Below the pieces are notes generated by a model that saw only the letters and a program-made list of their open reading frames with translations, searched no databases and had not been told where the DNA came from. From Gammaproteobacteria bacterium (GTDB taxonomy: Bacteria; Pseudomonadota; Gammaproteobacteria; JAABTG01): 64,000 nucleotides of DNA. Position 1 is the stretch's first letter. The number at the start of each line of letters is the position of its first letter. Positions 55,485 to 57,225 of this stretch are shown in pieces. Location of the stretch: the NCBI GenBank assembly GCA_034522055.1, contig JAXHLS010000006.1:310001-374000 (forward strand). The letters are read 5' to 3'. Made by a program: the position numbers and the translations under genes.

Positions 55485-55569
55485 GGGCGTTACTCTCCCC
55501 GAGGGCGCCGTCCGTTCGGTGTCGGGCTGAAGCCCGACCTTGTATGTTGGAGTTATCTGGCATGTTAGG

Positions 55570-55785
55570 TTTTTTGCCAGACACCGGGGAAGCCGTCCCG
55601 ACCTGGAGGCAGGAAGTTTCTGACCTCGCGCGTAGATGGGCTCCCCGCCTCATTGCCGATTTCGAGGAGTATCGGGAAGCCAGCCTGGCTGGACTTCGTA
55701 TCACAAGGTCGAACCGGCAAGAAATGCGAGGTCGGGGAACCGGTGATCAGTGTGACGCAACCGACCCCAGAAGGGAAAGGAGGAA
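55570..55785 (+). ncRNA. Predicted bridge RNA of the IS110 element
   Basis: Two internal-loop hairpins are readable. Target loop: outer stem GGGGAAGCC (55586-55594) / GGCTCCCC (55639-55646), apical stem GAGGCAG (55606-55612) / CTGACCTC (55620-55627). Its left strand carries CCCGACCT (55597-55604), identical to the left target plus core, and its right strand GTAG (55632-55635), complementary to CTAC of the right target. Donor loop: outer stem TTGCCG..TTCGA (55653-55665) / TCGAA..CGGCAA (55709-55720), apical stem GAAGCCAG / CTGGACTTC. Its left strand carries GGAGTATC (55666-55673), identical to the element's right end, and its right strand ACAAG (55703-55707), complementary to CTTGT at the core-left-end junction. 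Exact RNA ends are unknown. Confidence 0.82.
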
Positions 55786-55790
55786 CAACG

Positions 55791-56786
55791 ATGAGCGTTT
55801 ATATCGGCATTGATGTCGCCGCACGCTCCTTCGACTTGCTCTGCCGTCGTGACGGCAAGAACAGTAAGGTCTACACCTTCCCACAGACTGCCCAAGGTCA
55901 CGCCCAGGCGATCCGCAAGCTGCAGGCGCTGCAACCGGCGGGCATCGTGCTGGAGGCCACTGGCATCTACTACCTGGACCTCGCGCTGGCCCTGCACGAG
56001 GCCGGGCTGCCGGTGTCCGTGATCAACCCGCGCAGCTTCCGGCATTTCGCCGAAATTACGCTGCGCGGCAGTAAGACCGACCCGCTCGACACCGCCCTGT
56101 TGGCCGAATACGCCGAACGCATGACGCCTAGGCGCTGGACCCCGCCGCCATCGACCTATCGGGCCCTACGCGACTTCGGCCGGCATCTCAACCGCCTAAT
56201 GGACGCGCGGACCCAGGCCAAGAACCACCTGCACGCCCTGAAGGCGCAACGGGGCACGCCAGCCCTGCTGATCGAGGATGCCGAGGAAAGCATCGCTCAA
56301 CTGGACCAACGCATCGAACGGGTGCAACAAGCGGCCCAGGACTTGATCCAGCAGACCCCCGAGCTGGCGCAACATCAGGCCCATCTCTGTGCCGCCACCG
56401 GCCTCGCGGCAGCCAGCAGCCTGGCTCTGCTGGCCGAGCTATCCACACTGCCCAGGGACCTGAAGGCCAAACAAGTCGCTCGTCATGCTGGGCTGGACGT
56501 GCGCCTGCATGAGTCGGGCTCTAGCGTCCATCGACCCGGGCGCCTAGCCAAGACCGGCAATGCCTACCTGCGTAGCGCCCTGTACATGCCAGCGATGGTG
56601 GCGATCGTGCATGACCCGTATGCCAAGGCGTTCTATAACGCTCTGGTGGCCCGGGGCAAAAAGCGGATCCAAGCCTTGTGCGCCGTCATGCGCAAGTACC
56701 TCACCGGAATCTGGGCCTGCATGCAGCATGATCAGCCTTTCGACTCCTCCAAGCTGTTTAGCGATCAGCATCTCCAAACCGCTTGA
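55791..56786 (+). CDS. IS110-family bridge-RNA-guided recombinase
   Basis: The ATG at 55791 follows AAAGGAGGAA; 331 residues. The N-terminal DEDD RuvC-like domain starts YIGIDVAARSFDLLC and includes VLEATGIYYLDLALAL, INPRSFRHFA and SKTDPLDTALLAEYA. A coiled-coil region spans about 160-220, and the C-terminal Tnp domain with the putative catalytic Ser lies in LHESGSSVHRPGRLAKTGN. Frame intact. It should move the element by RNA-guided recombination at CT cores. Confidence 0.94.
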   Translation: MSVYIGIDVAARSFDLLCRRDGKNSKVYTFPQTAQGHAQAIRKLQALQPAGIVLEATGIYYLDLALALHEAGLPVSVINPRSFRHFAEITLRGSKTDPLDTALLAEYAERMTPRRWTPPPSTYRALRDFGRHLNRLMDARTQAKNHLHALKAQRGTPALLIEDAEESIAQLDQRIERVQQAAQDLIQQTPELAQHQAHLCAATGLAAASSLALLAELSTLPRDLKAKQVARHAGLDVRLHESGSSVHRPGRLAKTGNAYLRSALYMPAMVAIVHDPYAKAFYNALVARGKKRIQALCAVMRKYLTGIWACMQHDQPFDSSKLFSDQHLQTA

Positions 56787-56803
56787 CAGGAAACGGAGTA
56801 TCT

Positions 56804-57220
56804 ACAGATACACCCCCGCCGCCTGTTCCTTCGGCACGAATGTAGGTCGGGATTCATCCCGACATTAACGCCCGCCGCGCACACCACGGGCCGGGCCGGA
56901 ACCTCCCGCAGGCTGTCGGGCTGAAGCCCGACCTACAGATACACCCTCACCGCCTGTTCCTTCGGCACGGATGTAGGTCGGGATTCATCCCGACATCCCG
57001 GCCCGTAGATGCGCCCAGCGCCTGTTCCTTCGGCACGAATGTAGGTCGGGATTCATCCCGACATTAACGCCCGCCGCGCACACCACGGGCCGGGCCGGAA
57101 CCTCCACCGCTGACTGTCGGGCTGAAGCCCGACCTACAAAAACGAAGCCCGACCTACAGATACACCCCCACCGCCGGTTCCTTCGGCACGAATGTAGGTC
57201 GGGATTCATCCCGACATCCG
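56804..57220. repeat. Array of GTCGGG palindromes with longer shared spacers
   Basis: Units of both cores alternate: GTCGGGATTCATCCCGAC at about 56846, 56977, 57047 and 57198, and GTCGGGCTGAAGCCCGAC at about 56915 and 57116. They are joined by repeated spacers such as CCTGTTCCTTCGGCACGAAT and GCGCACACCACGGGCC. One unit at the left was split by the IS110 element. The array ends six bases before the stop of the mlaC-like gene. Confidence 0.9.
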
Positions 57221-57225
57221 GGGGG

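Follow-up and report, generated by a model that had tools for sequence, protein, structure and literature searches.

An IS110-group insertion sequence whose predicted bridge RNA carries guides matching its REP target and its own ends

The insertion sequence at positions 55541–56803 of the 64 kb stretch of DNA analysed here (the window; features given by window position lie on its forward strand) very probably belongs to the IS110 group, is IS621-like, and inserts under the guidance of a bridge RNA as published for IS621. The main supports are a single target shared by seven copies, a homologous and conserved RNA, covariation between guides and targets, and a recombinase that has kept its catalytic residues. 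A preliminary description had read the bridge RNA guides against the target and ends of the element, and this reading is supported by the sequence comparisons presented below. The bridge-RNA mechanism is known, having been published in 2024, with guide–target covariation reported over thousands of IS110 elements (PMC11208160); REP targeting by IS110 elements has also been published (PMC1525189). The present element is a well-supported new example, not a new mechanism.

The element, its ends and its recombinase

The insertion was proposed to have split a GTCGGG palindrome repeat, with intact copies nearby fixing both ends and a CT core. This proved correct, since two uninterrupted paralogous copies of the local repeat GAAGCCCGACCTACAGATACACCC are present in the window at 56923 and 57144. 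The left junction reads GCCCGACCT/TGTATGTTGG with the core at 55539–55540, and the right junction reads CGGAGTATCT/ACAGATACACC with the core at 56802–56803, the latter being counted as part of the element. The interrupted host site consists of the REP palindrome GTCGGGCTGAAGCCCGAC and an adjoining CTAC, and CT is left at either side of the element. In terms of the split target, the left part (TGTCGGGCTGAAGCCCGAC plus the CT core) occupies 55520–55540, and the second core with the right part (ACAGATACAC) occupies 56802–56813; both assignments draw on the sequence, the genomic copies and the paralogous sites. REP palindromes are very numerous genome-wide and form mosaic arrays, one of which lies in the window at 56841–57222.

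The genome (5.1 Mb) contains seven essentially identical copies, six full and one interrupted. All seven sit in one REP palindrome at CCCGACCT/ACA, with the target consensus GTCGGG[CA]TGAA[GT]CCCGACCT/ACA. Since the copies are nearly identical, transposition appears to have been recent, and the element is probably recently active and autonomous. The interrupted copy (L007 and L009, contig C2:182357–185261 of this genome, G000) carries an insert of ~1.6 kb near nucleotide 28 of the element, flanked by a repeated 5 bp GTTAG. A solo left end of 31 bp, CT/TGTATGTTGG, is found in the same REP at C2:144793–144823 (L008) with the rest of the element absent.

The recombinase (331 aa, 55791–56786) is identified as an IS110 DEDD enzyme from its domains, family model, catalytic residues and PDB matches. 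DEDD_Tnp_IS110 and its partner Transposase_20 (the PF01548/PF02371 pair) score 92.5 and 62.9 bits, both above their cut-offs, and the NCBIfam model for the IS110 family RNA-guided transposase (NF033542) scores 190.3 bits against a cut-off of 140. Residues D8, E55, D97, D100, S242 and G243 are invariant in an alignment of four homologues. Sequence matches were obtained to the IS621 and ISCro4 recombinases, both of known structure (PDB: 8wt6, 9t56), and the aligned region agrees with ISCro4. To judge from its sequence, it is an intact IS110 recombinase with an open frame and its catalytic residues retained. Distant relatives were found on viral contigs (four) and plasmids (one).

The layout is that of the IS110 group, in which a left end of 250 nt holds the bridge RNA model match and the right end spans 17 nt including the core. 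The defining feature of the IS1111 group, a guide RNA in the right end, is absent from this element, its right end being 17 nt and its RNA being in the left end. IS1111 elements with seekRNA (PMC11187229) likewise have a DEDD recombinase whose target is chosen through an RNA, but they possess subterminal inverted repeats and carry this RNA in their right end. The genome studied here contains six more IS110-family genes, all from other subgroups (L019, L027–L029, L030 and L031), of which three score identically. The covariance model of the window RNA, described below, gave no match at the four of these six that were examined.

The leader RNA and its guide segments

The bridge RNA is predicted to extend over approximately 55553–55745, with a modelled core at 55581–55745. 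A 5' stem-loop (CTGGCA/TGCCAG, 55557–55580) is suggested by the sequence and a single-sequence fold, in a part of the leader where relatives align poorly. The target-binding loop follows at 55586–55646, with the outer stem GGGGAAGCC/GGCTCCCC and the apical stem GAGGCAG/CTGACCTC, and then the donor-binding loop at 55653–55720, with the outer stem TTGCCG/CGGCAA and the apical stem GAAGCC/GGACTTC. Thus, the leader is predicted to form two stem-loops with internal loops, the target loop first.

The structure evaluated across relatives was specified on the window sequence and comprised, for each loop, an outer and an apical stem. Overall, 92.1% of cells are paired and compensatory changes occur in 18 of the 36 pairs; neither the double changes nor the covariation score was reached by any of 500 shuffles, and pairing falls to about 50% when the structure is slid by one base. 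The claim that both loops are well paired holds for the target loop, whose helices 1 and 2 are paired in 97.2% and 99.5% of cells with compensatory changes, and less fully for the donor loop (helices 4 to 6), whose outer stem, helix 4, is the weakest at 72.6%. RNAalifold analysis of 29 leaders recovered the target stem-loop and, for the donor loop, the apical stem. The single-sequence fold of the leader is less favorable (z = −1.19), with the left target guide partly paired; the comparative structure has the two loops and places the guides in internal loops, which speaks against the full pairing of the guides elsewhere that the preliminary description had named as grounds for rejecting its reading.

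A covariance search had also been suggested. Since Rfam has no matching family at the leader, and returned no bridge RNA match, a purpose-built model was made from the leaders of 28 other elements with the window left out. It matches 55581–55745 with 169.7 bits (E = 8.8e-48), has no other significant match in the 64 kb window, and also detects the RNA in more distant relatives.

Four guide segments are placed within this structure. The left target guide TCCCGACCT (55596–55604) matches GCCCGACCT at eight of nine positions, and the segment CCCGACCT, the left target plus core that the target loop was said to carry, is indeed found at 55597–55604. The right target guide GTAG (55632–55635), recognized from the sequence and from relatives, pairs with CTAC as proposed; the next guide base does not extend the pairing, because the guide has C where U is needed and all seven targets read ACA. 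The left donor guide GGAGTATC (55666–55673) equals the right end plus the C of the core. The right donor guide was described as ACAAG (55703–55707), and this segment is present; it should be corrected to include AT at 55700–55701, one base upstream, so that the full guide AT-c-ACAAG (55700–55707) complements CTTGT and AT in the left end and is split as in IS621. Judged by sequence complementarity and covariation, the guides would pair across the core with each strand of both target and donor.

Each of CCCGACCT, GTAG, GGAGTATC and ACAAG occurs once in the leader. Among 20,000 dinucleotide-shuffled leaders, CCCGACCT arose 116 times and GGAGTATC 51 times, while all four segments in this order and spacing arose in none. 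The published IS621 guides comprise a left target guide of 9 nt, a right target guide of 4 nt, a left donor guide of 8 nt and a split right donor guide (PMC11208158), and the order and lengths found here agree with them, as had been stated from the IS621 model.

Because its right target guide is mismatched at the fifth base, the element might be taken for a dead relic, its RNA and ends no longer working. This is extremely improbable given the essential identity of all seven copies (six full, one interrupted), the open frame and the retained catalytic residues, all of which point to recent transposition.

Several features are shared with IS621 and ISCro4 (PMC11208160, PMC11208158): a DEDD and serine recombinase, the CT core, the guide lengths, the split right donor guide, an RNA in the left end with a 5' stem-loop, target loop and then donor loop (the IS621 RNA by its published description), a REP target ending in CTAC, and a promoter that, in the present element, would be rebuilt at the predicted circle junction. 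In contrast, the target here is CCCGACCTAC and not ATCAGGCCTAC, the ends differ as well, and the recombinases share only distant similarity (phmmer E ≈ 1e-46).

Guides, targets and host repeats across relatives

With the alignment of four homologues as the query, 68 loci were identified in public genomes. A comparable left junction was available for 41 elements, including the window and one locus from the whole-genome search, and the leaders of the compared elements align. In 40 of the 41, window included, the four core-adjacent bases of the CCCGACCT homologue are identical to those in the left flank of that element, against a mean of 13.8 and a maximum of 23 in 20,000 permutations. The permutations ignore relatedness; with near-copies dropped, the match is 32 of 33 and the result is unchanged. 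In the one exception (L134) the guide does not match its own flank. Ten left targets are represented (CGAC, GCTC, GAGC, GGCC, CAAC, CACC, TGAC, CATC, ACTC and CGCC). Homologous copies at other targets with an unchanged segment would have spoken against the initial reading; relatives at other targets instead carry an altered CCCGACCT homologue. On the right side, the guide base before GTAG tracks the right-flank base that follows CTAC in 32 of 38 elements (expected 20.8, reached in 0 of 20,000), and the second base before GTAG does so more weakly. That guides follow targets across species is thus supported at the level of sequence.

The donor guides are nearly constant among relatives because the element ends are nearly constant. 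Where ends do change, as in L126 (TAAGTAT) and in L131, L133 and L138 (GAGTGT), end and donor guide are altered together; in L131, a change of AT to AC in the left end is accompanied by AT to GT in the split right donor guide. A donor guide mismatch is found in L124.

In this genome there are 494 exact copies of CCCGACCTACA compared to 23 of the reversed pattern. Sites of CCGACCTACA number 564 here (control 36), 14 in G311 (control 24) and 4 in G264 (control 26), whereas sites of CGCTCCTACA number 9 here (control 31), 162 in G311 (control 21) and 48 in G264 (control 6). From these counts, the guide matches the common repeat of its host in all three genomes, and the target repeat that is very common in this genome is rare in relatives with differing guides. 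No excess of the ACA form was seen in G143, where the element flanks read ACG and the count covered the ACA form.

The recombinase might instead recognize its target by DNA structure, namely the REP hairpin, and the matches to the guides would then be incidental. Most targets are palindromic in that a stem of at least five pairs is present in 20 of 37 left flanks, compared to 10% of shuffled flanks. The other 17 flanks lack such a stem by the same measure, the guides vary base for base with ten left targets, and IS621 targeting has been shown to be guide-dependent (PMC11208160). Recognition of the hairpin is therefore considered very improbable and guidance by the bridge RNA is preferred.

The clade is a clear-cut natural experiment in bridge-RNA targeting, spanning many gammaproteobacterial genera and ten left targets with a nearly constant donor. 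The REP signature CTAC is retained in its guides, and their variation falls where the REP families of the hosts differ. It may serve as a ready set for the study of natural guide re-programming and could supply recombinases that differ in their natural target.

Junction promoter, proposed mechanism and solo right ends

The right end contains TTGACA (56783–56788) and the left end TATGTT (55543–55548), which from their layout would be the −35 and −10 halves of a promoter. Joining the right end to the left end gives TTGACA-N17-TATGTT, and the layout TTGANN-N17-TAT/TAC is kept in 33 of 39 elements; the same layout has been described for IS621, where the promoter is rebuilt at the joined ends. By analogy with the published mechanism, the recombinase would excise the element as a circle, and the rebuilt promoter would drive a bridge RNA of ~190 nt from the leader. 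The target loop would base-pair with the REP foot CCCGAC-CT-AC and the donor loop with the circle junction GGAGTAT-CT-TGTAT, on both strands in each case, and a recombinase tetramer would swap strands at CT.

Apart from complete copies, 14 non-IS loci of this genome carry only about the last 23 bp of the element (GCTTGACAGGAAACGGAGTATCT). These solo right ends are located on contig C2 at 185399, 230372, 307385, 529138, 804973, 2245401, 2423692, 2998412, 3289468, 3620747 and 3621075, and on contig C6 at 134455, 885639 and 1050437 (together, loci L033–L052). The right junction is exactly CT/AC at 13 of the 14, with several right flanks, and the core is AT at one. The locus at C2:804968 has the appearance of an element that simply lost its interior. 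Ten of the 14 close a REP-bounded repeat unit of 115–299 bp that starts CT/ACAAAAAGCG, or CT/ACTCAAAGCG in one case. The unit also occurs without a right end in the same genome, and fragments of it are present in the sister species G001, none of whose matches extends to the right-end part. A tree of units with and without the right end fits one origin or several.

It is conceivable, if unlikely, that the bridge-RNA recombinase has also moved these right-end-only units, with the upstream intact REP, CCCGAC-CT-ACA, standing in for the left end. Excision from the REP to the solo right end would then give the junction GGAGTAT-CT-ACAAAAAG. Since the units are without the left end TGTATG, good pairing of the donor loop would be confined to one side. 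If such movement does occur, a stretch of DNA flanked by a REP and a solo right end would be mobile. Alternatively, the units may have been carried by REP-associated Y1 transposases of the same genome, in which 17 Y1-transposase matches were found.

A parallel is provided by ISPpu9 of Pseudomonas putida (PMC8450116, PMC1525189), an IS110-family element that is likewise present in seven copies, all in REP sequences, with small RNAs beside the transposase gene and orphan derivatives of element parts. It differs in its reported duplication, AG, and in that its RNAs are described as regulators at both sides of the gene.
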